This document shows, piece by piece, positions 3 to 15,613 of a stretch of 64,000 bases of DNA (position 1 is the first letter of the stretch; each line of letters begins with the position of its first letter). The notes under the pieces were generated by a model. It did not search any database and had not been told where the DNA came from. It saw only the letters and a program-made list of their open reading frames with translations. The position numbers were made by a program, and so were the translations under genes. Source of the stretch: Elusimicrobiales bacterium (GTDB lineage Bacteria > Elusimicrobiota > Elusimicrobia > Elusimicrobiales > UBA9959); the NCBI GenBank assembly GCA_028713125.1, contig JAQTOU010000002.1, positions 548,505 through 612,504 on the forward strand, in the 5' to 3' direction.

Positions 3-914
3 GCGTTAGCCACAAAAGCGCAGGCCGCGAATGCCGATATCAGCGACGTAGACGGTTCTAAGATCACCGGCGCTGGCACGATAGTAGCCGACCGGATAGC
101 GACCGGCAACCTGGGCGCTAGCGTGGTGGCTTCGTCGTTATCTATAAGCGGTTTCTACAGCGCGCCTGATATCAGGACGAACCTTGGCCTTGCGATAGGC
201 ACCGACGTATTGGCGCCTGCCGGTAGCGGCGCTTCGCTGACCAACCTGACCGCGGCCAATATAGCCGCGGGCAACCTGGGCGCGAGCGTGGTAGCGTCGT
301 CGTTATCTATAAGCGGTTTCTACAGCGCGCCTGATATCAGGACGAACCTTGGCCTTGCGATAGGTACCGACGTATTGGCGCCTGCCGGTAGCGGCGCTTC
401 GCTGACCAACCTGACCGCTGCCAATATAGCCGCGGGCAACCTGGGCGCTAGCGTGGTAGCATCGTCGTTATCTATAAGCGGTTTCTACAGCGCGCCTGAT
501 ATCAGGACGAACCTTGGCCTTGGCGCGTTAGCCACAAAAGCGCAGGCCGCGAATGCCGATATCAGCGACGTAGACGGCTCGAAGATCACCGGCGCTGGCA
601 CGATAGTAGCCGACCGGATAGCGACCGGCAACCTGGGCGCTAGCGTAGTAGCTTCGTCCATCGCAGTCGACGGTGTCTATACTAACGCTATAATAAACTC
701 CGCGGTGACTGACGCTAAGATATCCGGTATGTCAGCGTCAAAATTAACGGGAGTATTACCGCAGACTGTAGTTGTTTTTAGCGATGCAAACTGTGATACT
801 CTTACACCTGCAGCTGTCGGTCAATTCTGTTACGATACGGGCGCGAACCTCATAAGTGTTTCCACGAGCACTAGTGTAGGGGGATATGCCTCATTGACAC
901 TAGGCGGGTGGTAA
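3..914 (+). CDS. Repeat-built surface or fibre-like protein, 3-prime part
   Basis: The reading frame is open from the window edge to a TAA at 912-914, so the true start lies outside. The visible 303 residues are low-complexity, rich in Ala, Gly, Ser and Thr, with near-identical 55-residue units (VVASSLSISGFYSAPDIRTN followed by an AIGTDVLAPAGSG or GALATKAQAANAD variant). The last 50 residues are non-repetitive, contain two cysteines and end in LGGW. The style recalls trimeric fibre or tail-fibre stalks and large exported repeat proteins, but I recognise no named domain. It is followed after 78 bases by another exported protein gene. Role unknown; extracellular location is inferred from composition only. 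Confidence 0.7.
   Translation, partial: ALATKAQAANADISDVDGSKITGAGTIVADRIATGNLGASVVASSLSISGFYSAPDIRTNLGLAIGTDVLAPAGSGASLTNLTAANIAAGNLGASVVASSLSISGFYSAPDIRTNLGLAIGTDVLAPAGSGASLTNLTAANIAAGNLGASVVASSLSISGFYSAPDIRTNLGLGALATKAQAANADISDVDGSKITGAGTIVADRIATGNLGASVVASSIAVDGVYTNAIINSAVTDAKISGMSASKLTGVLPQTVVVFSDANCDTLTPAAVGQFCYDTGANLISVSTSTSVGGYASLTLGGW
123..521 (+). repeat. In-frame 165-bp tandem repeats
   Basis: Units begin at 123, 288 and 453 and differ by only a few silent changes. The third unit follows the first two for 23 codons and then switches to the alternative segment also seen at position 3. The repeat length is an exact number of codons (55), so copy-number change keeps the frame. Confidence 0.85.
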
Positions 915-992: not shown

Positions 993-2543
993 ATGAAATA
1001 TAAAAGCGTGGGTCTGGCTTTGGCGGGAGTGGCGCTTGCTTGCGGCGTTTTGCCCGCCGCGGCGGCTAATATGATGGAGACCAGGGCCTTTACCAGCGGC
1101 CTGGCCATCTCTAATAGCGGCGGCTATGCGCTTGAGTCCACCGTCGGGGAGGTCTCAGGATCCACCATGGCGGCTTCAGGCAAGGGGCTGCGCTCCGGCC
1201 ATGCCGGGACCAGCCACAGCCCCGGCGCGGTTTACGACCTTACGGCCTCCACCAGTTCCGCCAACGACGTGCTTTTCCAGTGGACCAGCGTCGGCAGCGA
1301 GGGGCTCGTCGGCCAGGCCAGCGCGCTTGAAATTAAAATAGCCACCTTCCCGGTGACCTATGCTAATTATTCAACTATAAATTCTTCCCTTACCCTGGCC
1401 GCGCTCACTGCCGGCACTGTGGACCAGAAACTTTATTCCGGGCTCCAGGCCGGCAAGACCTATTATGTGGCCATCAGGGTCCGCGACAGCAGCAATATGT
1501 ACGGCCGGCTCTCGGCCAACGCCAGCTTCGGCACCGCTCCGGTAAGGCCGCGCGCGCCCGTGGTCCGCGGCGTTCTGGCCGGCGGCAACTTCACCATGTC
1601 CTGGGACGCGGTGCTGTACAATACCGAGGGAAGCACCATCTCCATTAAAAATTACGAGGTTTATTCCAGCACCGCGCTCACCGGCACGGTCTCGGCGGCT
1701 ATAACACTTTCAAGCTCCACTCTTTCCTACACCGTGGCCACCAGCCCCGTAAAGTGGTACTTCGTGAAAACGCTGGACAGCGACAATGTGCGCAGCGAAT
1801 CTTCCATCTGGCTCAGCAATGCCGACGACGTGGTCCGCACCGTCTCCGAAGACAGGCGCGCTATAGTCGACCTCCCGCCTTTCGTAGACGAGGACCTGCG
1901 CGCGGCCGGCCTGGTCCCTGTCATGGAGAGCCAGCCTGCCTTCGAGACCGGCGCCACCGTGGTGTCCTATAAGTTCTACCTGAGGGACGCGTCCAACAAC
2001 GAGGTGAAGCGCACTCTGCCGCAGGACGTTACGCTTACCATGCCGCTTTCAAAGACCGGCTCCTTCACTGTCAGCGCTTTCTCGCCGGCCGCTTCCTACA
2101 GCGACTACGACTATGCCGTTTACTACTATAACGGCGTGGAAGACGTGAAGCTGGGCGGAACCGTGAACCCGGAGAGCGGCAGCGTGGCCGTGGTCACGCG
2201 CCAGACCGGCCTCTTCAAGGTGAAGCGCGTCGTCAGGGCGCAGAGCTTCAGCATAACGCAGACCGTGCCGCGCAAGACCTTCACGCCCAACGGCGACGGG
2301 ATCTGGGACGAGTTCAATATCATCTTCGAGAACCCCGAGGGCCTCTCTATAAGCAGCGCCAAGATCTACGACCTGTCCGGCGCCGAAATAGCCACCCTCA
2401 GGGCCGGAACTTATAACTCCGAGGCTTCGCTGTCGTGGGACGGGCGCAGGTCCGGGGGGGACAAAGCGCAGGCCGGCATCTATGTCTACCAGTTCAAAGC
2501 CGGCAGCAAGTATTATAACGGCACGGTGGTCCTGGCCAGGTAA
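993..2543 (+). CDS. Secreted Fn3 and FlgD-like Ig domain protein
   Basis: 516 residues. An N-terminal signal peptide (hydrophobic run to about residue 25, ending AAA/N) is followed by a short GYALESTVGEVSGSTM segment common in exported repeat proteins, then fibronectin type III-like strands (about 80-280). The C-terminal 90 residues carry FTPNGDGIWDEF and a SWDGRRSGGDKAQAGIYVYQ stretch, the hallmark of FlgD-like or gliding-associated Ig domains at the end of exported proteins. I infer a cell-surface or secreted protein, perhaps with a C-terminal sorting or attachment domain. No clear ribosome-binding site precedes this ATG, but the signal peptide supports it. Confidence 0.75.
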   Translation: MKYKSVGLALAGVALACGVLPAAAANMMETRAFTSGLAISNSGGYALESTVGEVSGSTMAASGKGLRSGHAGTSHSPGAVYDLTASTSSANDVLFQWTSVGSEGLVGQASALEIKIATFPVTYANYSTINSSLTLAALTAGTVDQKLYSGLQAGKTYYVAIRVRDSSNMYGRLSANASFGTAPVRPRAPVVRGVLAGGNFTMSWDAVLYNTEGSTISIKNYEVYSSTALTGTVSAAITLSSSTLSYTVATSPVKWYFVKTLDSDNVRSESSIWLSNADDVVRTVSEDRRAIVDLPPFVDEDLRAAGLVPVMESQPAFETGATVVSYKFYLRDASNNEVKRTLPQDVTLTMPLSKTGSFTVSAFSPAASYSDYDYAVYYYNGVEDVKLGGTVNPESGSVAVVTRQTGLFKVKRVVRAQSFSITQTVPRKTFTPNGDGIWDEFNIIFENPEGLSISSAKIYDLSGAEIATLRAGTYNSEASLSWDGRRSGGDKAQAGIYVYQFKAGSKYYNGTVVLAR

Positions 2544-2622: not shown

Positions 2623-4068
2623 ATGAAACAGGAAAAAGCTAAAATAATAACTGTGGCAAAAGGCTTATTTCTCATATTCTGTGGTATTGCCGCGGCTACT
2701 ATGAACGCTAAAGCTTCTTTTTCAGCCGATTCCGCCTGCGGGGCAAGGTCCGCCGCTATGGGCGGCGCCTTTACCGCCGTTTCCGGGGGCGCCGAGGCCA
2801 TTTGCTCCAACCCCGCCACCCTCCTTGAGCTTTCCTCGCCGGAGCTTACCGCCGCCTATGGGCGCCTCTTCTCCGGCCTTACCGACGATTCCAAGATCGG
2901 CCAGGGCTATTTCGGCTTTGCGGCTCCCGTTAAGCGCTACCTTCCCGGTGCGGCTGCCTTCGCCTGGAACGATACCCGCCTGAGCGAGGCCTATTCCGAA
3001 ACCTCCTATTCCGTCAGCTACGCCACCACCGTTTACCGCGGGATAGGCGCCGGCCTTACCCTTAAATATCTCCGCCGCAGTTATGTCTCCGACGCTTACA
3101 CCGCGCTCGACCCGGTCTTCGCCAACGGTTACGCCAAAGGCGCGCTGGGAGCGGACCTGGGCTTTTTCTACCGGCCCCAGGCTAATTACGCTTTCGGCCT
3201 TTCCCTCAAGAACATAAATAAGCCGGATATGGGCCTGGCCTCCGCCGACCGCCTGCCCGTGGAAGTGCGCGCCGGCGCCTCCTACCTTATGAGGGCGAGC
3301 CTGCTGGACATCGACGCCGCTTTCGCCGGCCCGGACTATACGATCTCGACCGGCCTGGAATATTCTTTCCAGAAGCGCTACGCCCTGCGCATGGGCCTGG
3401 CCGCGGGGAATAATTCCCGCCGCAACGTGAACATCGGTTTCGGCGGGCGCTTCGGCCTGGCCGCTTTCGATTACGCTTTCAGCCTGCCTATCGGCGGCAT
3501 CGCCAATACGAACGGCTCGCACCGCCTGGCTTTCTCTTTCCGCTTCGGAAACGAAGCCGACCTGCTCCGCGCCGAGGAACTCGCCGCGGCCGCCGAGCTC
3601 AAGCGCGCCCAGGAAAAGACTTTCCTGCAGGAAGAAAAGATCCGCGTTCTGCAGGAGCGCCTCGACGGCGTAGTCCGGCAGCAGGGCGCCGTCCCCGCGC
3701 AGCAGCCCGTGCAGGTGATCCAGCTGGCTCCCGCCCCGGCGCAGCCCGCGCTCCAGGCGCAGCCCGATTCAGCCGCGCAGGCCGAGATCGCCCGCCAGCT
3801 CGACGTTCTTAAGGCGGAACTCGAGAAGTCACGCGCCGAAATGGAAGCCATGAAGGCGCGCGCCGCGGCCAAGCCCGCCCCGCAGCCCAAGCCCGCCCAG
3901 GCCGCCGCTCCCCACAGCTACGTGGTCAAGGAGGGGGACACCCTGGAGAGCATAGCCGCTTCAGTGTACGGCAACGCTTCGCGCTGGCCCGAGATCTACC
4001 GCGCCAACTCCGGCTCCCTGGGCCGCGGCGGCGAGGTGAAACCCGGGCAGGTGCTGACGCTGCCTTGA
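2623..4068 (+). CDS. PorV-like outer-membrane barrel with coiled coil and C-terminal LysM
   Basis: 481 residues. A signal peptide (to about residue 30) precedes a barrel-like region (about 35-310) starting with ARSAAMGGAFTAVSGG and NPATLLE, the signature of PorV/UPF0164-type outer-membrane proteins. Residues 315-430 form a Glu/Ala-rich coiled coil with Pro/Gln linkers. The end (about 432-481) is a LysM domain (YVVKEGDTLESIAASVYGNA) expected to bind peptidoglycan. The protein would tie the outer membrane to the cell wall. It heads an operon with two giant coiled-coil proteins and a membrane response regulator; the next gene starts 9 bases after its stop. Confidence 0.8.
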   Translation: MKQEKAKIITVAKGLFLIFCGIAAATMNAKASFSADSACGARSAAMGGAFTAVSGGAEAICSNPATLLELSSPELTAAYGRLFSGLTDDSKIGQGYFGFAAPVKRYLPGAAAFAWNDTRLSEAYSETSYSVSYATTVYRGIGAGLTLKYLRRSYVSDAYTALDPVFANGYAKGALGADLGFFYRPQANYAFGLSLKNINKPDMGLASADRLPVEVRAGASYLMRASLLDIDAAFAGPDYTISTGLEYSFQKRYALRMGLAAGNNSRRNVNIGFGGRFGLAAFDYAFSLPIGGIANTNGSHRLAFSFRFGNEADLLRAEELAAAAELKRAQEKTFLQEEKIRVLQERLDGVVRQQGAVPAQQPVQVIQLAPAPAQPALQAQPDSAAQAEIARQLDVLKAELEKSRAEMEAMKARAAAKPAPQPKPAQAAAPHSYVVKEGDTLESIAASVYGNASRWPEIYRANSGSLGRGGEVKPGQVLTLP

Positions 4069-4077
4069 ACATAATTT

Positions 4078-7000
4078 ATGAAAGAGAATTTTGACGAATC
4101 TTCCCTGAACGAGGCCGCAATAAACGACGTGGAAACCGCGCGTCTCGCCCTGCGCTGGGCGCTGGACAAGATCCGCGCGCAGCACGAGGAGGACCTGAAG
4201 GTCCGCCAGAGCCTGCAGGATAAAGCCAGCCAGGTTTCCTTCCTCGAAAACCAGCTTAAAGCCAAGAACGTAGAGATCGACCGCTCCACCCGCGTGCACG
4301 AGGAGGAGATGAAGTCCCGCCAGAGCTCGCTGGAGTACCAGTTCCATTCCCGGCTCGAGCGCCTGACCGAGCGCGAGAAAGAGCTGGAGGATAAAGTTTC
4401 CAAGAACGAGGAGATCCTCAAGCAGAAAGAGCTGCGCCTGCAGGACGACTACCAGAAGAAGTCCGAGGAGCTGCGCGGCCGCTGGGCGTCGGTGGAGGGC
4501 GAACTGTGGCAGCTGCGCCAGGAACAGCTGGCCAAGCAGCAGGAATTCGAGCGCGTCTACGGCGCCCGCCTGGAAGAGGAAAAGAAGAGATTCGCCGAGG
4601 AAGCCGCCGTCCAGAAGAACAACCTCGAGGAGACCTACCGCAACCGCGTCGAGGAGCTCGAGAAGCGCGAGCGCTCTTCCAGCGACGAGCTGAAGAAGCA
4701 GGAGGCCGTGCTGAAGTGGGCCAAGGACAGCTGGCAGAAAGACACCGAGGAGCGCGAGCGCGCCCTGAAGCACAAAGATCTCGAGATCGACAAGAAGATC
4801 CTGGAGAAGAACCAGGAGATAGACGATTACAAGGTGAAGGTCTCCCTTTTCGAGAAGCAGCTCCGGGAATTCCCCGAGGCCATGAAGCGCCGGGACGAGG
4901 ACCTCAACCGCTACAAGGACGCCATCTCGAGCCTCGAGAGCGTTATCCGCACCCTTGAAGTGGAGAAGAAGAACCAGCAGGCCGACTACGAGTCCCGCCT
5001 CGCCAAGGCCGGCGATTCCATAGAGACGGAGCGCAACCGCTACCGCGAAATAGAGTCCGAGATCCCCAAGCGGCTCAAGATAGCCATCGAGCACGAGCGC
5101 AACCGCTACGCCGAGAAGCTGCAGGAGATAGAGCACGGCTACCGCGAAGACCTGGGCAAGCGCCAGGACGAGGTGGAATACCTCCAGCGCAACCTCCGCA
5201 CTTTCGAAGAGACCATCAAGACCCTGCAGGCCGAGCGCGAGGCTTTCTCGCACAAGGTCGAGCAGATGCAGACCCAGTACAATGTCAAGCTGGAGGAATT
5301 CTCCTTCCGCGAGAAGCAGCTGCAGTCCGAGTACGACGTGCGCCTCAAGGTGGAGATGGAGAAGCACACCGCCTCGCTGCGCTCCGAGATCGAGACCGCC
5401 GGCCGCATCTACGAGGACAGCCTGCGACTGAAGGTGGAGGAGATCTCCCACCTGCGCAGGGATATAGAAGAGCTTTCCAAAGAAAAGGCCGCCGGCAAGG
5501 AGCAGCAGGTTTCGCTGCGCCGCGAGATGGAGGCCGCCGACGCCCGCGCCGCCTCCGAGCAGACGGCCCTGCGCGCCAAGCTGAAGGCGGAGTACGACCA
5601 GAAGCTGGCGGACGAATCGGTACACGCCGAAAAGCGCCACTCCGCGGAAAAACAGAAATTCGTGGACGAGCTGGAAGGCCGCAAGATGGAATTTATGGCC
5701 GAAGTCGGCCGCAAGGACGAGGATATCAATACGCTGCGCCTTTCCCTCCAGAAGGCGGGGGAAGACCTGCGGATGCTGCGCCAGAAAGCCGGGGAGGAGC
5801 AGAAAGCGGCCGTCGCCGAGGAGCGCGCCCGCTCCGCCGCGGAGCTGGACGACAGGTCCGCCCGCCTGGCCGCCACTATCGCCCTGCGCGACGAGAAGAT
5901 CGCCGAGCTGTCCAAGGCGCTTGACGCCTCCAAGATCGAAAGGGAAGAGACCGTGCTGCTCGAGCGCGAGCGTATGCAGCGCCTCTACACCGAGAAAGAG
6001 AAGGCTATCGACGAGGAGCTGGCCGCCCGCGACGCCGAGCTGTTCCGGGTCCGCGAGGCGCTGGTAAAGGCCGCCGCCGAAAAGGACGCTATCGCCTCTG
6101 GCTACGCCGCCGAGAAGCGCGCCCAGGAAGAAAAATACGCGGCGCTCGCCGCGCGCCTTACCGAAGAGGAAGCCGACGCCGGCGTAAAGCTGGACGCCGC
6201 GCTGCGCCGCGAGGCCGACCGCTACGGCGAGATAATCGAGCGCAAGAACCGCGAGCTGGAAGCCGCCGCCCAGCTGCGCCAGTCCCAGGATGAGACCTAC
6301 AGGAAGACCCTCGCCGACTTCCGCAATAACCTTTCGGATACGCTCGCTAAATTCGAGGCCCTCAAGAGCACGGCCGAGGAGCGGCAGATGCAGCTTTCCG
6401 TGCTGCAGATAGAGCTGGCCCAGGAAAAGAAGCAGGCCGGGGACCAGATCTCGTCGCTCTCAGCCAAGCTCTCCGACAAGGACAGGCTCCACCGCGAGCT
6501 CCGTTCCGAGTTCGACAGCTTCAAGGAAGCTTTCGAGGAGGAGGTCAAGGCGGGCGAAAGGAAATACAATGACGCCCTCCTCAAGCTGCGCGCCGCCGAG
6601 GAACAGAAGGCCGCCAGGGACAAGCAGATAGACGCGCTCAAGCGCGACGGCGAGCTGCTGCGCGCGGAGAACCAGCGCCGGGAGCACGAGGCGGCGGAAC
6701 TGAAGAGCGCCTCCGCCAAACAGATCGAGAACGACCGCCGCGAGATCCACGCCGCCGGCGAGCGCCGCGCCCACGAATACGCGCAGAAGGAAAAAGCGCT
6801 GCTGGCCGAGATCTCCTCGCTCCGCGACATCTTTAATTCCAAGGACCTCCAGCTGGAGAAGCACAAGGTCCAGTACGACGAGGCCCGCAACAGCGCCGAG
6901 CGCCTGAAGGCCATGCTCGAGGAGGAGCGCGCGAAGCAGGCTGAGACCGACGCGGCCCGCCGCGCCACGCTCGAGAGCATACAGAGCGCTTTTGAGAGCG

Positions 7001-7581
7001 AGAGGAACAAGCGCGAGGCGGCCGAGGCCGCGGCCCAGTCCGCCATCTCCGCGCTGCGCGACAAGGCCGCGGAGTTCTCGGGCCAGCGCTCGGAGCTCGA
7101 GGGGCTTATCCGCTCCGTAGAGCGCATGAAAGTTTCCTTCGAGGAAGAGCGCCGCAAGCGCGCCGAGGCGGAAGCCGCCGCCGAAAGTTCCGGCCGCGCG
7201 CTGCGCGATAAAGCCGAAGAATCCCTGGAGCACCGCTCTGAAATAGAGGCCCTGCGCCACGCCGTGGACCGCATGAAAGCGGCTTTCGCGGACGAGCGCA
7301 AGAAGCGGGCCGACGCCGAACTGATGGCGGGCACCATGCGCTCCGCGCTTAACGAGAAGACCGAGGAAACGATGGGACGCGCTTCCGAGGTCGAGGCCCT
7401 TAAGCACGGCATCGAGCGCCTCAAGCACGCTTTCGAGGAAGAGCGGGCCAAGCGCGTAGAAAGCGAGCTCCTCGCCCAGACCGCCCACTCGGCCCTGCGC
7501 GAAAAGCAGGAAGAATTCATCCGCACCCAGAAACTCGTGGATCAGCTCAAGGACAAGCTCAAGATATGGAAGAGCAAGTAA
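4078..7581 (+). CDS. Giant coiled-coil protein (1167 residues)
   Basis: Almost the whole protein is heptad-type coiled coil, rich in Glu, Lys, Arg, Ala and Leu, with no signal peptide or membrane segment, so it should be cytoplasmic and rod-shaped. Residues 971-1167 are four consecutive 49-residue repeats (pattern AFEEERxKRxEAE...SALRxK...EVEALxxxIERLK); 49 is exactly seven heptads. I recognise no enzymatic domain. Its stop overlaps the next gene (start at 7566) by 16 bases, indicating translational coupling with the coiled-coil kinase. Likely a cytoskeletal or scaffold protein for the downstream kinase; that role is inference from context. No good Shine-Dalgarno precedes this ATG. Confidence 0.8.
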   Translation: MKENFDESSLNEAAINDVETARLALRWALDKIRAQHEEDLKVRQSLQDKASQVSFLENQLKAKNVEIDRSTRVHEEEMKSRQSSLEYQFHSRLERLTEREKELEDKVSKNEEILKQKELRLQDDYQKKSEELRGRWASVEGELWQLRQEQLAKQQEFERVYGARLEEEKKRFAEEAAVQKNNLEETYRNRVEELEKRERSSSDELKKQEAVLKWAKDSWQKDTEERERALKHKDLEIDKKILEKNQEIDDYKVKVSLFEKQLREFPEAMKRRDEDLNRYKDAISSLESVIRTLEVEKKNQQADYESRLAKAGDSIETERNRYREIESEIPKRLKIAIEHERNRYAEKLQEIEHGYREDLGKRQDEVEYLQRNLRTFEETIKTLQAEREAFSHKVEQMQTQYNVKLEEFSFREKQLQSEYDVRLKVEMEKHTASLRSEIETAGRIYEDSLRLKVEEISHLRRDIEELSKEKAAGKEQQVSLRREMEAADARAASEQTALRAKLKAEYDQKLADESVHAEKRHSAEKQKFVDELEGRKMEFMAEVGRKDEDINTLRLSLQKAGEDLRMLRQKAGEEQKAAVAEERARSAAELDDRSARLAATIALRDEKIAELSKALDASKIEREETVLLERERMQRLYTEKEKAIDEELAARDAELFRVREALVKAAAEKDAIASGYAAEKRAQEEKYAALAARLTEEEADAGVKLDAALRREADRYGEIIERKNRELEAAAQLRQSQDETYRKTLADFRNNLSDTLAKFEALKSTAEERQMQLSVLQIELAQEKKQAGDQISSLSAKLSDKDRLHRELRSEFDSFKEAFEEEVKAGERKYNDALLKLRAAEEQKAARDKQIDALKRDGELLRAENQRREHEAAELKSASAKQIENDRREIHAAGERRAHEYAQKEKALLAEISSLRDIFNSKDLQLEKHKVQYDEARNSAERLKAMLEEERAKQAETDAARRATLESIQSAFESERNKREAAEAAAQSAISALRDKAAEFSGQRSELEGLIRSVERMKVSFEEERRKRAEAEAAAESSGRALRDKAEESLEHRSEIEALRHAVDRMKAAFADERKKRADAELMAGTMRSALNEKTEETMGRASEVEALKHGIERLKHAFEEERAKRVESELLAQTAHSALREKQEEFIRTQKLVDQLKDKLKIWKSK

Positions 7582-10500
7582 GCCATATAAGCGACCTTGA
7601 AGGTCTGAACTCAGAACTTGAGGGCTTTCTCGCCGACCTGCACGGCCGCGAGGAGTCCATGTCCGTGCGCGTAAAAGCCCTCGAGGAAGAGCTGGCCGGG
7701 GTCCGCAATTCGGCCGCCGCCGCGATGGGCCGCATGACGCAGAAGGAGACCTCCCTCGCCTCCGCGCTGGAGCAGCTGCGCGCCGCCCTCAATAGTGAAA
7801 CCTCCAGGAGCTCTACCCTCTCCCTTGAGAGGGAAAACCTGTCCCGGCAGCTGGAAGTGGTTTCCGCCCGGCTTGAAGATTCCAAGGCTTCCGCGGCTGA
7901 AAAAGAGGAACTGCTGAAAGCCGCGCGGGCTTCCGCCAAGGAGGAGTCCGCGAAGTCCTCCGCGGCGATAGAGGGGCTCCAGGGTTCCCTGCTTACGGAG
8001 AGCTCCAGGGTAGCGGTCCTTGCCGCCGAGCGCGACGGCCTGCTCCGCCAGGTGGAGGATATCTCCGGCCGCCTTAAAGACGCTAAAGCCATCGCCGCAG
8101 AAAAGGACGCTTTGATGCAGGAGGCCCGCGCGGCCGCCAAGGAGAAGTCGGCCGTGCAGTCCGCGGCGCTCGACCAGCTCCGCGCTTCGCAGGAAGACCT
8201 GGCCGCGAAAACGGCCGCCCTGAGTTCGGAGCACGACGGGCTACTTGCCCGGCTGAAAGAATATTCTTCCCTGCTCCAGGAGGAAAAAGACGCTTCCTCG
8301 AAAAAGGACGCTTTGCTCGATGAAACCCGGGCCGCCGCCAAAGCCAAGAGCGCTGAACTGTCCGCGGTCATCGACCAGTTGAAGACCTCGCTGTTCGAGG
8401 AAAGCCTGAAGGTGGAGGCCATGGTTTCGGAGCGGAACGGGCTGCTAAGGCAGTTCGAGGAGTCCGCCTCGCTGCTCGAGGGAGAGAAAGCCGCTTCCGC
8501 GAAAAAAGACGCTTTGCTGAACGAGACCCGGGCGGCCGCGAAGGCCAAGGCCGCCGAACTCTCCGCCGCTATCGACCAGGTAAAGGCCTCCCTGCTCGAA
8601 GAAAATTCCAAGGTGGAGGCCCTGGCGCTCGAGCGCGACGGCCTTCTCCGCAAGCTCGAGATGGAGGCACGCAGTCTTGAGGCGGAAAAATCCAGGTCCG
8701 CGGAAAGAGAGCTGCTTATTAACGGGGCGCGCTCCGCGCTCAAAGACAAGGACGCGGAGATCGAGAGGCTGCTCAGGACCGCGGAGGACCTGAAGACCGA
8801 GCTTACCCTCGAGCGCGCCAATGTGAAAGACCGGGAGGCCCAGCTGCAGAAGGCCGCAAGATTTACGGAAGGCGTCGAGCGCCGCCTCGACCAGGCCGCG
8901 CAGGAGAACTCGCGCACCGAAGAGGGCTACCTCCTTAAGATAGAGCTGGTAAAGAAAGAGCTGCGCGAGCAGACCAAGCGCACCGAAGAGATAGAGCGGA
9001 AGCTGTCGGCCGCCGGCGCCAGGCTTGAGGACTCGCTCGACGAGGTCGGGAAAAAAGAAAAAATGCTGGCCGAGGCCAACGCGGCCCTGGCAGAAAAAGA
9101 CGCTCAGCTTAAAGACGCCAACCTGAAACTCAAAGAGCTGACGAAAGAATTCGCGGAAGTCAAAAGTGGCAGCGGGCACGAAAACGTCCAGCGCGCCAGG
9201 GAGATGACCGCCTCCATGGCGGCCCGGGTCGAGGAACTCGAGAACGCGATGTCCGAAGCCGCGGCCCGCAGCCTGGAAAAATTCCGCGCCTCCCAGGCGG
9301 AGCTCAGCGCCTCCAAGGCGGCGCTCCGCGTCAAGGAAGAGGAAAACGCCAGTCTTAAATCCCGGGAAAGCTCCCTTATAGGCGAGCTCTCCGACGCCGA
9401 AGAAAAATGGAAGCTGGCATCGGCGCAACTCCATAACGCGGTCTCAAGGCTGCGGAACGCCGAGAACGAGAACGAGATAGCGCTCGGGCGCCTCAAGTCC
9501 GTGGAAGAGGAGAGGAATAAATTCCGCGCGGCCGCGATCAAGGCCGAAACCGCCTCCGCGTACATGGCAGCGCAGGAATCCAGGGCGCGCGACGGCGAGG
9601 CCTCCGGCCTTATGGCCGCCCTCGAGGAGCAGGCGGGGATGTACACCGCCCTGCTGCGCAAATACGACGATATCGTCCTGCTTAATGAAAACCTGGCCCG
9701 CGAGAAAGCCGGCGACAGGGCCGAGGCCGATTCCCTGCGCGAGGCGCTCAAATCCGCGCAGGCCGCGGCCGAGGCGGAGTCGGGCGAGAAGCGCGGCGTC
9801 CAGTCCGGCCTCGCCGGGAAGCTCCGGGAAGCGGAAGCGCAGCTGAAGAAAAAGGAATTCGAACTTGAGGAGGCCTGCGCCATCGCCAAGGCGGCCGGCT
9901 CCGAGGCCGTCTCGCTGCGCGCCCGTCTGAAGGAAACGGCCGCTTCCGCCGCCGCGGCGGCCGGCGAGGCCGAAGCCGAGAAGTCCCGCTACGCCGCGCT
10001 TACCGAGAAAATGCGCGCCGCCGACGCGCAGCTGAAGAAAAAAGAATCGGAGCTGGATGAAGCCAGGAACTCCCTTAAGTCCGCGCAGGAAGCGGCGGAG
10101 GCGGCGACCGGGGAGAAGAAAGGCCTGCAGGCCGGCCTGGCCGAGAAGCTGCGAGGCGCGGAAGCGCAGCTTAAGAAAAAAGAATTCGAGCTGGAGGAGG
10201 CCCGCGCCGCGGCGGCTTCCGCCGGCGACGAGGCTGCCCTGCTGCGCGCCCACCTGCAGGAGACGGCGGCGTCCGCCGCGGGAGAGGCCGAGGCCGAGAG
10301 GGCCCGCTACGCCGCGCTTTCCGAAAGGATGCATAACGCGGACGCGCTGCTCAGAAAAAAAGAATTCGAACTGGACGAAGCCCGGGGCGCGCTTTTCGCG
10401 CTGGAGAACGAATGTTCCCTGCTGCGGGCCAGCCGCGCGGCTCTCGGCGAGAAATACTCCCGCGAGATCCATGCCGAGAACGAGCTGCTGAAAGAGGCGC

Positions 10501-11585
10501 AGGCCAGGGTGGTGGAGCGGGATTCCTCCATCGCGCGGCTTTCCCTGGCGGAGGAAGAACTCAGGAAAGAGGCGGAGGCGCTTAAGAAGGAAAAGCAGAA
10601 TCTGCTTTCCCTGGTGCGCAAAAAATCCGCCGCCTCGACCCATTCCGTCAAGGTCTCGGAAGCCGAGCGCATGCTGGCGGACAAAGAAAGCCGCCTTATG
10701 AAGCTCCGCTCCGAACTGGAGAACACCCGTGCGGAAAAAGCGGAGCTGCAGGGCAGGGAAAAGGAGCTCCGCGAGGAGCTCAAGGCCCGGCCCTACCGCG
10801 CCATGCTGCGCGAGGCGGAGGATAACCTCCTGATCAAGGAGAAGATGCTGGCCGAAGTGACTTCGCGCATGAAGAAGATCGGCAAGGACTTCGAGGACCT
10901 TAAAGACCGCGGCCAGGCCGCCGGCGCTCCCGGCTATATTCCTGATTTCGAGGAGCTGGTGGCCGGGGTGGCGCACCAGGTGGCCAATTCCATCAGCATC
11001 ATCCGCAGCCACGCGGAGTTCTGCGCCGAAACCCCGGAGGCGGAGGGCGCGAAGGAATCGCTGAACGTAATAGTCCGCAATATCGTGAACCTGCAGAAGA
11101 AGATAGACATAATAATGAATTTTTCAAAGCCGGTCATCCCTCAGCGCTCGCCGGAGCGCCTGGCGGCCGTGCTTTCCGAAGTTATGAACGGGCTCCGCTC
11201 TTCCGGCCGCCTGGAGAATATAAAAGTGAGCGTTAAGGGGGGGGAGAAGCTCAAGCCCGTCAACCTGGACAGGGTGCGTTTCGCCTCGGCGGTGGAGCAG
11301 CTGCTCCTCAACGCCGTGGAGGCCATGCCCGACGGAGGAGACCTGTCGGTGCTCCTTTCCGGCGGCGACGGCAGGCAGCGCCTCGAAGTGTCCGACACGG
11401 GGGCCGGGGTCGAAAAGAAAAACCTGGCCGCAGTTTTTCATCCTTTCTTTACCACGCGGCCCGGCAAAATGGGGCTGGGCCTTACCCTCGCCCGCAACGT
11501 GGCCAGGGCGCACGGTGGCACGCTGGAACTTCTGAACAATCCGGACAAGGGCGCCAGGGCGGTGCTGGAAGTGCCCGAAGCCTGA
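7566..11585 (+). CDS. Coiled-coil histidine kinase (1339 residues), soluble
   Basis: Residues 1 to about 1110 are continuous coiled coil, including about five 67-residue repeats (near 90-420; AAAKAKSAELSAxIDQ...ERDGLLRxLE) and a second family with AQLKKKEFELEEA. The C-terminal 220 residues are a histidine kinase: H-box VAGVAHQVANS with the phospho-acceptor His near residue 1137, N-box EQLLLNAVEAMPDG, G1 DTGAGV, F-box FFTTRPGKMGLGL. The His is followed by Gln rather than the usual Glu. There is no membrane segment or PAS/HAMP domain, so the rod itself is probably the input. The cognate regulator follows 8 bases downstream. Confidence 0.88.
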   Translation: MEEQVSHISDLEGLNSELEGFLADLHGREESMSVRVKALEEELAGVRNSAAAAMGRMTQKETSLASALEQLRAALNSETSRSSTLSLERENLSRQLEVVSARLEDSKASAAEKEELLKAARASAKEESAKSSAAIEGLQGSLLTESSRVAVLAAERDGLLRQVEDISGRLKDAKAIAAEKDALMQEARAAAKEKSAVQSAALDQLRASQEDLAAKTAALSSEHDGLLARLKEYSSLLQEEKDASSKKDALLDETRAAAKAKSAELSAVIDQLKTSLFEESLKVEAMVSERNGLLRQFEESASLLEGEKAASAKKDALLNETRAAAKAKAAELSAAIDQVKASLLEENSKVEALALERDGLLRKLEMEARSLEAEKSRSAERELLINGARSALKDKDAEIERLLRTAEDLKTELTLERANVKDREAQLQKAARFTEGVERRLDQAAQENSRTEEGYLLKIELVKKELREQTKRTEEIERKLSAAGARLEDSLDEVGKKEKMLAEANAALAEKDAQLKDANLKLKELTKEFAEVKSGSGHENVQRAREMTASMAARVEELENAMSEAAARSLEKFRASQAELSASKAALRVKEEENASLKSRESSLIGELSDAEEKWKLASAQLHNAVSRLRNAENENEIALGRLKSVEEERNKFRAAAIKAETASAYMAAQESRARDGEASGLMAALEEQAGMYTALLRKYDDIVLLNENLAREKAGDRAEADSLREALKSAQAAAEAESGEKRGVQSGLAGKLREAEAQLKKKEFELEEACAIAKAAGSEAVSLRARLKETAASAAAAAGEAEAEKSRYAALTEKMRAADAQLKKKESELDEARNSLKSAQEAAEAATGEKKGLQAGLAEKLRGAEAQLKKKEFELEEARAAAASAGDEAALLRAHLQETAASAAGEAEAERARYAALSERMHNADALLRKKEFELDEARGALFALENECSLLRASRAALGEKYSREIHAENELLKEAQARVVERDSSIARLSLAEEELRKEAEALKKEKQNLLSLVRKKSAASTHSVKVSEAERMLADKESRLMKLRSELENTRAEKAELQGREKELREELKARPYRAMLREAEDNLLIKEKMLAEVTSRMKKIGKDFEDLKDRGQAAGAPGYIPDFEELVAGVAHQVANSISIIRSHAEFCAETPEAEGAKESLNVIVRNIVNLQKKIDIIMNFSKPVIPQRSPERLAAVLSEVMNGLRSSGRLENIKVSVKGGEKLKPVNLDRVRFASAVEQLLLNAVEAMPDGGDLSVLLSGGDGRQRLEVSDTGAGVEKKNLAAVFHPFFTTRPGKMGLGLTLARNVARAHGGTLELLNNPDKGARAVLEVPEA

Positions 11586-11593
11586 GGAAATTT

Positions 11594-12838
11594 ATGTCAC
11601 GTATCCTTATAGTGGACGACGAACCCGACATGCGCCTTGCGGTGCGCAATGTCCTGAAGCTGCGCGGCTATGAGATTTCCGAGGCCGGAGACGGCCCTTC
11701 GGCCCTCGAGATGGCCAGGGAAAGCCGCCCCGACCTCGTGCTGCTGGACATGCGCCTGCCGGGCATGGACGGTATCGAGGTCCTGGAAGGCCTTAAAAAG
11801 ATAGACGACACGGTCCCGGTAGTGATGATAACCGGCTACGGCCACATCCAGTCGGCAGTGGACGTTATGAAGCTCGGCGCCAGCGAATACCTGCAGAAGC
11901 CATTTGAGAACGCGCAGCTCGTGGAGACGGTAAAGAGATTTATACAGAGCCCGGCTAAACGGCGCGTCCCCGCCGAAGACTCCGGCGGCGGGGTCGCCGT
12001 CGCGGTAAAAGTCCAGGCTCCCGTGCGGCAGCCGGCGCTCCAGCCGGCCGCTTCGGTCCAGGCTCCGGCCGCCGCCGTCCAGGCGCCTCAGGCCGCCCGG
12101 AGCGCCCGGAATCCTTTCTATGTCCTGGCCGCCTCGCTGGCTCTACTCCTGGCCGGCTTCGGCGTCTACCGGCAGGTGCAGGCCAATTCAGCCGGCTACT
12201 ACCGCGAATATCCCGGCGTCGCGGCCAACATCTCTTCCCTGGTCTGGGCCGACGGAAAACTTTTCGCGGGCGACTGGCTCTCCCAGTCGGTTTACCTCTA
12301 TTCGGCGGACAAGGACGGGCTGCACCTGGAGGAAACTTTCCCTCTCGAGAAAACCCATATCAGCGGACTGGCCGCCGCCGGCGACACGCTCTATATAGCC
12401 GACTCCTGGAAAAAGACCATCGAGGCCAGGCGGATCGCCCCCGGGCTGCCGCTTCTTAAAAGTTTCCCGGCGCCCGGCAAGGTAAGCGCGCTGTTCTATG
12501 ACGGGGAATACTTGTGGACCTGCGACAGCGAGGGGAACGCGGTGCTGCGCCGTCCTGATTCGGAGCTGACCCCGTCCGTTTCTTTCAAGCTCCAGGAGAA
12601 GCCCGACCAGATCTTCAAGGACAAGGACTACCTGTGGACGGCGGTCTCCTCGACCGGCAAGATCTACCGCCATAAGCTGGACGACAGCCTCACTCCGGAC
12701 GGGGTGTTCGCGCTCAAGACCCGGAGGGAAGGCGCCCCGCTTTCAGCGTTCGCCTGGCGCGGCGAAAGGCTATGGCTGGCAAGGGACGGCCTCGGAATTA
12801 TCTTCGAGGCGGGAAGAGCGGAACTTCTAAAGGAATAA
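11594..12838 (+). CDS. Response regulator receiver fused to a membrane helix and predicted beta-propeller
   Basis: 414 residues. Residues 1-120 are a complete CheY-like receiver (DD at 8-9, phospho-acceptor D52 in LLDMRLPGMDG, T80, K102). A Pro/Ala/Gln linker (about 130-170) leads to one membrane helix (about 174-192, FYVLAASLALLLAGFGVY). Residues 195-414 contain repeated strand units with paired aromatic/Asp motifs (SLVWADGKLFAGDWLSQSVY, YDGEYLWTCDSEGNAVLRR, KDYLWTAVSSTGKIYRH), most like an NHL/WD-type propeller outside the cytoplasm. There is no DNA-binding or enzymatic output. It sits 8 bases behind the kinase gene with an AGGAAATTT leader. It could also be read as a sensor whose receiver is the cytoplasmic module. 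Confidence 0.85.
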   Translation: MSRILIVDDEPDMRLAVRNVLKLRGYEISEAGDGPSALEMARESRPDLVLLDMRLPGMDGIEVLEGLKKIDDTVPVVMITGYGHIQSAVDVMKLGASEYLQKPFENAQLVETVKRFIQSPAKRRVPAEDSGGGVAVAVKVQAPVRQPALQPAASVQAPAAAVQAPQAARSARNPFYVLAASLALLLAGFGVYRQVQANSAGYYREYPGVAANISSLVWADGKLFAGDWLSQSVYLYSADKDGLHLEETFPLEKTHISGLAAAGDTLYIADSWKKTIEARRIAPGLPLLKSFPAPGKVSALFYDGEYLWTCDSEGNAVLRRPDSELTPSVSFKLQEKPDQIFKDKDYLWTAVSSTGKIYRHKLDDSLTPDGVFALKTRREGAPLSAFAWRGERLWLARDGLGIIFEAGRAELLKE

Positions 12839-12945: not shown

Positions 12946-13395
12946 TTAGTCGATCAGTTCGTTCAGGACGGCGGACGGGTTGGCCATCTTGACCTGGGCC
13001 ATATCGGGCACGTTGGCCGTAACGGCGTAGTTGCCGTAGCGGGCCGCGACGCTGGAATTGGTCGTGTGGCGGGTGACGGTGATCTGGAAGCAGGGGCCGC
13101 TGGCGCAGTTGCCCGCGTTGACCACCGCGGTGAAGAACTTGGTCGTTATATTGCCGGCGGTCATGCCGTTGTACATGATGTCGAGCTGGGTGAAGTCGGA
13201 GGTGTACACGCCGCCGCGGGCCAGGTACCTTTCCTCGGCGGACTTGACGGAGGAGATCAGCGACATGGCTTCCGCCACGCGGGCTTTCTCTACGACTTTA
13301 AAGTATTGCGGTATGGCTATGGAAGCCAGGATACCGATGATGAGCACGACCACGAGCAACTCTATCAGCGTGAAACCTTTTCTATTGTTTTTCAT
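12946..13395 (-). CDS. Type IV pilin / pseudopilin
   Basis: 149 residues. The N-terminus is a textbook prepilin: short basic leader MKNNRKG, cleavage before F, then TLIELLVVVLIIGILASIAIPQ with the conserved Glu at +5. The rest is a short globular domain with two cysteines 4-5 residues apart. It is assembled into type IV pili or a type II secretion pseudopilus; PilT is encoded in the same window (19294-20382). A strong GGAGGGG ribosome site precedes the ATG. The gene is monocistronic, ending against the terminator at 12872-12903. Confidence 0.93.
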   Translation of the reverse strand: MKNNRKGFTLIELLVVVLIIGILASIAIPQYFKVVEKARVAEAMSLISSVKSAEERYLARGGVYTSDFTQLDIMYNGMTAGNITTKFFTAVVNAGNCASGPCFQITVTRHTTNSSVAARYGNYAVTANVPDMAQVKMANPSAVLNELID

Positions 13396-13493
13396 AAATC
13401 CCCCTCCGTAGCGTTAATTATCAGAACTTATAAAGAGTATATCACAAAAAAACATTCCGTTGTGTGGATTCTTTGTGAGTTTTCTGTGAGGGC

Positions 13494-14198
13494 TTATTCA
13501 GCCTCGTCCCATTTATAGCCAAGGCCTTCCACGGTGATAAGGTTCCCGTGCATTTTCCCGAGGCTCTTGCGGATGTTCTTTACATGCGTATCTATCACGC
13601 GGCTGGTATTGAGATACGGCCTGCCCCAGATCCTCTCCATCAGGAACTGGCGCGTCATCACCCGGCCTGATTTTTTTACCAGGAGGTGCAGGATCTCGAA
13701 TTCCTTGGGCGACAGGTCGAGGAGCCTGTCGTCTATCTTCGCCTCGTGCCTGGGGTAGTTTATGACCAGGGCGCCCGAGGAAATGGTCTCTTCCGCGCCG
13801 TCCCGCTCTTCGGCGGAGAGGCTGCGCCGGATAAGGGCTTTGACGCGGGCTATGAATTCGGCCGGGCTGAAGGGCTTGGTCATGTAATCGTCGCCGCCAA
13901 GTTCCAGGCCCAGCACCTTGTTCACCTCGCTCCTGTCGGTGGTCAGAAAGATTATAGGTACTAGCCTGGCCGGGCTTTCGGAAGCGCGCACCTGCCTGCA
14001 GAAATCCAGGCCGCTCATGCCGGGCAGCCTGAGGTCCACCACCATCAGGTCGGGGGTGAACTTGACCAGCGCCGCCAGCGCCTGCTCCGCGGAGGTGCAG
14101 GTGAGCACGGTGTAATTCTCAAGCTCCAGGCGCTCCTTCACCGCTTTCAGGAGCGCGTGTTCGTCGTCGATCACAAGGATGGTCTGTTTTGCCGGCAT
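13494..14198 (-). CDS. OmpR/PhoB-type response regulator
   Basis: 234 residues: receiver domain (1-120; DDEHAL acidic pair, VVDLRLPGM phospho-acceptor, K in YMTKPFSPAEF) and a winged-helix DNA-binding domain (about 135-232; LSPKEFEILHLLVKKSGRVMT, RVIDTHVKNIRKSLG, GLGYKW). It is a transcription factor controlled by the histidine kinase encoded 11 bases upstream (14210-15613). Ordinary family member of normal length; its target genes cannot be read from here. Confidence 0.95.
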   Translation of the reverse strand: MPAKQTILVIDDEHALLKAVKERLELENYTVLTCTSAEQALAALVKFTPDLMVVDLRLPGMSGLDFCRQVRASESPARLVPIIFLTTDRSEVNKVLGLELGGDDYMTKPFSPAEFIARVKALIRRSLSAEERDGAEETISSGALVINYPRHEAKIDDRLLDLSPKEFEILHLLVKKSGRVMTRQFLMERIWGRPYLNTSRVIDTHVKNIRKSLGKMHGNLITVEGLGYKWDEAE

Positions 14199-14209
14199 AA
14201 GAACGTCCC

Positions 14210-15613
14210 TCAGGAGGGCAGGAAAATAGAGAAGGTGTTGCCGCCCGCGCCGCTCTCCGCCTCTATCCTGCCGCCATGCAGCTCTATCAGGTATTTGGCT
14301 ATGAAAAGCCCGAGCCCGGTGCCCTGCCTGGCGGACGGGTATTCCCGCCTGCCCGAGCTGATCCTGTAAAACTTGCTGAAAATATTCTTAAGCTCGTGGG
14401 GCGGTATCGGGGCGCCGGTGTCGCAGACGCGCACTTTCTGCCAGCCCGGCAGGGTCTCGATAAAAACGCTGACCGAGCCGGAGTCCGTGAACTTCACGGC
14501 GTTGCCTATGACGTTGGCCAGGACCTGGTAAAGGCGGTCCTGGTCGCCGCGGACGTCGGGTATCTCCCCGGCCACGATGAATTCCAGCTTGAGGCCTTTC
14601 TGCGCGGCGTAGGTCTTGAAAGCGCGCACCGCCCGGTCCACCAGGTTCTCGAGGTTCATCGGTTTCAGGTCGAGCGTCAGCTTGCCGGACTCTATCCTGG
14701 AAACCTCGAGCATCGAGTCTATGAACCGCTTCAGGCGCTGGGAATGTTCGTTTATCGAGAACACCTGTTCCGGGATCCTGGCGGATTCGCGTTTTTCCGC
14801 AAGCTTTAAAATAATATCGGAGCAGAGCTCGATGCCGGTTACCGGGGAGCGCAGGTCATGGGTTATGCTGGAGACGAAATCCCTTTTCATCTCGTCGTAT
14901 TCCTTGAGCTTGTCCGCCATCTTGTTGAACTCGGCGGCAAGCCCTCCCAGCTCGTCTTTGGAGGCGATCGGGACCCTGTGGTCGAGCTGGCCCGAGCCGA
15001 TGATGCGGGCCGCCTCCTCTATAGTCTGGATCGGGCCGGCTATCACCCGGGTTATTATCAGGGTGCCGGCGCAGCCTATGGCGAAAGCGATGGAGAGGAT
15101 TATAAAAAAGTTGGCCGATGACTGCCGCAGGGAGGAATCCATTTCCTGGTAGATCAGCTGGGTCGAAAAGTCCACGCGCGCGGTGATCTCTCCGGTCCTG
15201 CCCCTGGCGCTGAACGACGCTTTCAGGATGTCGACCCCGTTGTCGCTGCTGGTCTCCCATGTGCCGGTGTTCGGGGGGGAAAAATTTTTGAAATAGTAGC
15301 GGAACGGGGGAGGGTAGGGGCTGTAGTAGCGGTCTTCCATGAAAACCCGGCCGTCGGGCCCGCTGCAGGAAACCTTGATAATTTCAGGGGCTTTGAGGAA
15401 CTCCTTGAAATATTTATAAGCGGAAGACTTGTCCGGGGTGCGGTACATCTCCTTGCACACTTCCGACATCGAGAGCAGGATCTGCAGGTTTTTCCGCTGG
15501 CTGTTGGCGGAGATGGAGGACCATTCGTTATGCTGGAACAGGAAGGCGGTTACCGCCGAGATCGCTGTCAGGAGTGTAAGGATGAAGAGGATGAGTTTTG
15601 TGCGTATACTCAT
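14210..15613 (-). CDS. Membrane sensor histidine kinase with HAMP domain
   Basis: 467 residues: first membrane helix (about 6-26), a periplasmic sensor region of about 125 residues, second membrane helix (about 155-178), HAMP linker (to about 232), HisKA H-box FVSSITHDLRSPVTG and HATPase with N (NVIGNAVKFT), G1 (VCDTGAPI) and G2 (GTGLGLFIAKYL) boxes. Paired with the downstream OmpR-type regulator. It starts 8 bases from the tRNA-Lys gene (15621-15692), so it may be co-transcribed with it. The sensed signal is unknown. Confidence 0.95.
   Translation of the reverse strand: MSIRTKLILFILTLLTAISAVTAFLFQHNEWSSISANSQRKNLQILLSMSEVCKEMYRTPDKSSAYKYFKEFLKAPEIIKVSCSGPDGRVFMEDRYYSPYPPPFRYYFKNFSPPNTGTWETSSDNGVDILKASFSARGRTGEITARVDFSTQLIYQEMDSSLRQSSANFFIILSIAFAIGCAGTLIITRVIAGPIQTIEEAARIIGSGQLDHRVPIASKDELGGLAAEFNKMADKLKEYDEMKRDFVSSITHDLRSPVTGIELCSDIILKLAEKRESARIPEQVFSINEHSQRLKRFIDSMLEVSRIESGKLTLDLKPMNLENLVDRAVRAFKTYAAQKGLKLEFIVAGEIPDVRGDQDRLYQVLANVIGNAVKFTDSGSVSVFIETLPGWQKVRVCDTGAPIPPHELKNIFSKFYRISSGRREYPSARQGTGLGLFIAKYLIELHGGRIEAESGAGGNTFSIFLPS

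Follow-up and report, generated by a model that had tools for sequence, protein, structure and literature searches.

The nearest functional analogue of the locus described here is the Agl-Glt gliding machine of Myxococcus xanthus, with AglZ and FrzS (PMC3169522, PMC1974792). The locus is an operon of an Elusimicrobiales bacterium, located on a stretch of 64,000 nucleotides (referred to as the window; positions 548,505 to 612,504 of contig JAQTOU010000002.1) in a genome of 3.48 Mb (called G000). Its two giant coiled-coil genes, a rod and a histidine kinase, were studied within the operon, which comprises the end of a surface protein gene, followed by the genes for a CHU_C protein, a LysM barrel, the rod, the kinase, and a regulator. 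We assign a probability of about 0.55 to the reading that this operon supplies the control and scaffold parts, one half of an envelope-spanning, non-flagellar FliG/MotAB surface machine in Elusimicrobiota.

Agl-Glt shares with the proposed machine, which is deduced here from genes alone, a MotA/TolQ-class stator, long coiled coils joined to receiver-like domains, an envelope-spanning complex and, in relatives, chemosensory links. The stator of the proposed machine, however, is of the flagellar MotA type and is accompanied by FliG, and neither the PorV-like barrels nor the transmembrane receiver-propeller protein has an equivalent in Agl-Glt. Robl_LC7, the roadblock family of MglB, was found in none of the 198 Elusimicrobiota genomes that form our phylum sample; MglA was not searched for. 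With the flagellar motor, the proposed machine has in common FliG_M/FliG_C, MotA, and MotB, as well as CheA/CheC/CheD/CheY beside relatives, but FlhA and FliM/N are absent, FliG carries a TPR tail and differs in its N-terminal part, and giant coils and outer-membrane barrels take the place of rod, hook, and filament. FlhA and over-cut-off FliM/N (FliMN_C) were detected in a single genome of the sample (G032) and not in G000, with positive controls included. A genuine flagellum was thus rejected for G000, despite FliG and MotAB elsewhere in the genome. G032 (L190, L153), being the only genome in the sample with FlhA and FliM/N, is probably its only flagellate.

Two further systems were compared. 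Type IX secretion and Bacteroidota gliding (PorV, SprA, GldLM; PorX/PorY) resemble the locus in that a PorV-like barrel adjoins a CHU_C protein and a two-component system is nearby; the locus differs by its MotAB stator and by the LysM domain on the barrel. HisKA kinases of the AtoS/ZraS type with NtrC-type receivers match the catalytic core and the receiver by sequence, but here about 1,100 residues of coil replace the membrane sensor, the H-box is HQxxN, and a propeller beyond the membrane replaces the DNA-binding output. The parts are known, and none of the tested systems accommodates their combination; these comparisons, together with a literature search of incomplete coverage, suggest that the machine as a whole, with its proposed function, is new. 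The kinase/regulator pair taken alone would be a variant of a two-component system. The search, which covered literature on Elusimicrobia with FliG, gliding or motility and had preprints and most subscription journals outside its scope, found nothing on such a system.

According to a 2025 survey, rotor proteins without a filament occur in 11% of non-motile species, for which an alternative function was suggested only (PMC12199754). The locus is a concrete candidate for the role of rotor proteins in such filament-less species, being part of a conserved non-flagellar FliG/MotA/MotB gene cluster that has scaffold, envelope, and signalling parts of its own. Should our reading be true, another machine would be added to the few known surface-motility engines, a flagellar rotor protein would have found a new use, two-component signalling would have an unusual output beyond the membrane, and a behaviour would be predicted for a largely uncultured phylum.

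Linkage to FliG in other families and the FliG/MotAB genes of G000

Relatives of the regulator's propeller are encoded in 53 of the 198 genomes. In 11 genomes from six other families (f11, f15, f16, f18, f21, f22), the propeller gene is in one operon with a gene coding for FliG_M/FliG_C-TPR. These joined operons also hold a second barrel (UPF0164 plus TPR) and giant coils, and usually add a CHU_C protein, a barrel resembling that of the window, and a giant surface protein; the operon of f11 includes a histidine kinase gene as well. Because relatives of the genes that flank rod and kinase thus share an operon with FliG in six other families, we favour a motor-driven surface machine. When propeller, barrel, and CHU_C proteins from outside the family were used as queries, the window genes were the best among the own-genome paralogues compared in 19/19 cases (marginally so for one CHU_C query).

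The cluster is divided in the family of the window, with the FliG half on another contig of G000, where genes for a giant FlgD_ig protein, FliG-TPR, a coil, FlbD, MotA, and then MotB follow each other. The coil is orthologous to the coil with a Pro-rich head from the joined operons (E 3e-40), and MotA is nearest to flagellar MotA/PomA. Three more FliG_C proteins of about 500 aa are encoded on G000 contigs 11 and 15 (L165, L166, L167). One of their genes directly precedes MotA and two MotB genes, and two adjoin CHU_C-barrel pairs, so that G000 may harbour several related motors.

Related regulators in two genomes have as their neighbours CheA, CheC/CheX, CheD, CheY-like receivers, and a PilM/FtsA/MreB-like ATPase. 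In L071 and L068, this ATPase has 743-749 aa and is encoded with the Che genes next to receiver-transmembrane-propeller genes, which ties an actin-like protein to chemotaxis phosphatases.

FliG was detected in 59 and the MotB plug in 64 of the 198 genomes. FliG and propeller co-occur (both in 48 genomes, propeller alone in 5, FliG alone in 11, neither in 134; Fisher p 2e-29), but this value is uncorrected for descent, which is the first of several points that weigh against the surface machine. As the two halves are on separate contigs in the window's family, their link is taken from other families. In the FliG-TPR protein of G000, the residues aligned with the stator-facing charges of flagellar FliG (those that we take to be stator-facing, in E. 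coli numbering) are mostly changed. The rod and the kinase coil had no BLAST match at E 1e-3 to the coils of the FliG operons, and homology is not claimed; some relatives within the class have a short kinase without a coil. The glutamine that follows H1137 of the kinase speaks against strong autokinase activity (see below), and no motility is on record for these uncultured bacteria.

The rod and the kinase

The features of the two giant genes are as follows.

4078..7581, + strand: rod, 1167 aa; N-terminal half conserved, C-terminal half varying in length (open reading frame, composition, periodicity, alignment of relatives)
6955..7557 (limits approximate), + strand: 49-residue (7-heptad) repeats at the C-terminus of the rod (self-alignment at lag 49; rod lengths of relatives in 49-residue steps)
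7566..7581, + strand: overlap of rod stop and kinase start, 16 bases (length the same in 20/20 loci)
7566..11585, + strand: soluble histidine kinase, 1339 aa, with ~1,100 residues of coil containing 67-residue repeats (open reading frame, Pfam, periodicity, self-alignment)
10953..11579, + strand: HisKA/HATPase_c core of the kinase, with H1137 (codon 10974-10976) in HQVAN (Pfam, structure alignment)

A first-pass annotation of the window had described two giant proteins, with about 1100 residues of coil ahead of a soluble kinase core. The open reading frames match its description exactly, including the overlap; periodicity, Pfam, and sequence bear out the coil and the H-box, and no transmembrane segment was predicted in rod or kinase. 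The assignment as coil is based on composition and hydrophobic periodicity and not on the result of a coiled-coil predictor. The rod has 2 Pro, no Cys, and 17% Glu, and the kinase is devoid of Pro until residue 1076. The hydrophobic period is ~3.5-3.6 residues over most of both proteins. In the middle of the rod (about 540-735), the periodicity peaks near 3.6, and this part may be a single alpha-helix instead of a coiled coil. A Pfam search of the rod gave no domain match.

Rod and kinase genes are adjacent in 20 loci, each with the 16-base overlap (a few of these loci are near-duplicates from two collections). This recurrence side by side with a fixed overlap argues that they are not chance open frames. 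As the length of the overlap is unchanged even though the regulators of these loci diverge to about 45% identity, coupled translation of rod and kinase is a natural inference. In G088, a single protein of 2599 aa has the rod N-terminus at its start and the kinase core at its end. A hidden Markov model of the rod N-terminus missed this fusion, but aligning the sequences pairwise revealed it: the score was 91, whereas none of the 894 other coil windows used as background scored above 71 and none of 2000 heptad-preserving shuffles reached 91. The invariant overlap and the natural fusion indicate that rod and kinase probably act as one unit, in line with the annotated partnership of the two proteins.

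Rod lengths in close relatives are 1118, 1167, 1216, and 1265 aa and thus differ by whole 49-residue steps; among relatives in general, the rod ranges from 897 to 1325 aa and the kinase from 883 to 1574 aa. Such wide variation in coil length and repeat number, along with a rod that is unmatched in FliG operons, would also suit coils that serve an ordinary two-component system as passive spacers, their linkage to FliG being a coincidence of neighbourhood. We consider this very unlikely, as the synteny recurs in six families and residues 1-450 of the rod, unlike a passive spacer, retain ~70-80% mean identity to the window rod across six loci and across genera (far lower in the C-terminal half).

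The kinase core has the expected features of a histidine kinase, namely the DHp His and the N, G1, F, and G2 boxes of HATPase_c. In residues 1130-1338, Pfam detects HATPase_c (E 5e-18) and HisKA (E 7e-5, slightly below the curated cut-off) and no other domain. The nearest solved structure is that of ZraS (alignment E 9e-23). While the core is thus present as annotated, the usual acidic residue after the phospho-acceptor His is replaced by Gln, which makes the activity of the kinase uncertain. This Gln is present in the family and in most relatives from the class, and nearly all of the examined operon relatives have it (HQ[VI][AS]N, HQ[IV]RN). A natural HQ motif occurs also in kinases of the FlrB/FleS type. 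Kinase activity of CrdS, HK853, and two further HisKA proteins depends on the acidic residue, whereas their phosphatase activity does not and instead requires the Asn/Thr three residues further on (PMC3510030); the NtrB exchange E140Q has a kinase-negative phenotype (PMC3510030). Because H1137 is followed by Gln instead of Glu or Asp, the window kinase, which retains the Asn of the phosphatase motif (HQVAN), may act mainly as a phosphatase.

Regulator, barrel and proposed mechanism

The kinase gene is followed by that of the regulator, and the rod gene is preceded by that of the barrel.

11594..12838, + strand: response regulator, 414 aa, with receiver (1-118), Pro-rich linker, transmembrane helix (174-200), and propeller (203-413) (Pfam, alignment, model with pLDDT 85, folds)
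12113..12193, + strand: transmembrane helix of the regulator (hydropathy and model)
2623..4068, + strand: PorV/FadL-like outer-membrane barrel, 481 aa, with two helices and a C-terminal LysM domain (LysM by Pfam; PorV/PorQ family below cut-off; 14-strand model)

In the predicted structure of the regulator (mean pLDDT 85), a disordered Pro-rich linker (122-170) lies between the receiver and the transmembrane helix, and the propeller is five-bladed. The closest folds are glutaminyl cyclase propellers and Spo0F. The receiver is nearly invariant, and the features of a phosphorylatable receiver are present, with D8, D9, D52, and K102 in 24/24 aligned sequences. When the genomes of 84,980 species were scanned in a way that finds close relatives only, full-length relatives came exclusively from Elusimicrobiota or unnamed bins, whereas the other sequences matched the receiver only. 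In other families, the transmembrane helix and propeller are preceded by TPRs or by a degenerate region that appears receiver-like by sequence inspection and is often fused to a coil.

The usual topology would place the receiver in the cytoplasm and the propeller in the periplasm. A receiver inside and an output propeller outside suit control from inside to outside better than sensing. The annotation had proposed a cytoplasmic filament as a sensor of cell shape, length or envelope stress, with signalling via the kinase to the membrane regulator. Giant coils, a LysM barrel, a position shortly before ftsQ-ftsA-ftsZ, and rod lengths that shift in whole 49-residue steps would fit such a sensor. 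The regulator, however, lacks a DNA-binding output and has its output domain past the membrane, the propeller is linked to FliG in six families and co-occurs with it, and coil lengths vary freely among relatives. The claim of sensing is thus not upheld, and we regard a filament of this kind as distinctly improbable; the barrel before and the membrane regulator after the two giant genes are as annotated.

The barrel model has 14 strands and two helices and is of moderate quality (pLDDT 61). By fold, it comes closest to PorV of T9SS complexes (6h3i_F, 8gl6_F) and next to FadL. A weak match to a T9SS type B sorting domain was also obtained. These results lead to the main rival, the export and display of surface proteins without motility: the PorV-like barrel and the CHU_C protein would be a type IX-like sorting pair, the coil kinase and the transmembrane regulator would be in control, somewhat like PorX/PorY over T9SS, and MotAB/FliG would energise export. 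The several CHU_C-barrel-signalling loci in the genome, with giant surface proteins adjacent, also agree with this. In contrast, SprA_N (PF14349) had no match in G000 at E 1e-3 (a very divergent SprA is possible), MotA of the flagellar type and FliG are not known as export parts, and the chemotaxis proteins beside relatives fit motility. Type IX-like display thus seems to us rather unlikely. Weak SprA_N matches occur in 35 other Elusimicrobiota genomes (e.g., L191, L192), mostly in frames of 1400-1900 aa, and these may point to a divergent type IX translocon.

Gene linkage, domain architecture, conservation, and the lack of flagellar export and FliM/N genes are seen in the sequences themselves. 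For the surface machine, we infer formation of a scaffold or filament, control of the regulator by the kinase via phosphorylation, force transmission, and motility. Coupled translation would supply the rod and the kinase coil in a fixed ratio, and together they would build a cytoplasmic scaffold that may be a filament. At the end of this scaffold, the kinase core would set the phosphorylation state of the membrane-anchored receiver; given the conserved Gln after H1137, local dephosphorylation would be as likely as phosphorylation. The state of the receiver would be passed through the transmembrane helix to the propeller outside the inner membrane, which would couple to the LysM barrel and surface proteins. 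The motor half encoded elsewhere in the genome would contribute FliG-TPR, MotA, MotB, a coiled coil, and a giant surface protein (plus a second PorV-like barrel in relatives). The likeliest output would be that motor-driven movement of adhesins on the surface (gliding) is switched or positioned. The full picture, in which flagellum-less Elusimicrobiota drive surface motility by a FliG-TPR/MotAB engine on a giant-coil scaffold and a coil-borne kinase steers it by phosphorylating or dephosphorylating the regulator, with phospho-signalling from inside to outside via a periplasmic propeller, is proposed tentatively, at somewhat less than even odds.

Gene order and surroundings

The operon begins with two genes for surface or secreted proteins, the first of which starts upstream of the window.

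123..914, + strand: 3' end of a repetitive surface protein gene of 1474 codons (start at G000:C15:544994; whole frame L059:10995-15419)
993..2543, + strand: secreted protein, 516 aa, with a C-terminal CHU_C / FlgD_ig domain (Pfam PF13585 E 1e-7, PF13860 E 2e-6; signal-like N-terminus)

Counterparts of the 1474-codon gene are found at the head of the operon in loci L040, L041, L043, and L044. The gene order CHU_C protein, LysM barrel, rod, kinase, regulator is maintained across genus and family. Conservation of the four genes from barrel to regulator, which had been expected across the phylum, therefore holds within the family; across the phylum, the giant coil is sometimes not attached to the kinase.

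A sigma-54-like site (TGGCAAAGTCGTTGC, L059:10920-10934, corresponding to G000:C15:544919-544933) is located upstream of the window, 61 bases 5' of the 1474-codon gene, which is the first gene of the operon, and directly downstream of genes for a PAS kinase and an NtrC-type regulator. Among the relatives compared (G118, G112, G142), the site has the same letters and spacing in G118 and reads TGGCAACTTTGTTGC in G112, and it was not seen in G142. These sites make sigma-54 control of the operon probable.

Downstream of the operon and oriented toward it (12946-15613, - strand) are a type IV pilin-like gene and the genes for an OmpR-type regulator and a membrane histidine kinase, beyond which tRNA-Lys and then ftsQ-ftsA-ftsZ on the + strand are found. 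The pilin and division genes stay next to the operon in several relatives. Long open reading frames of up to 559 aa occur antisense to the coil genes, e.g., at 3961-5640 and 9444-11012 (both - strand), and most plausibly are a by-product of the GC-rich, repetitive codons of the coils.

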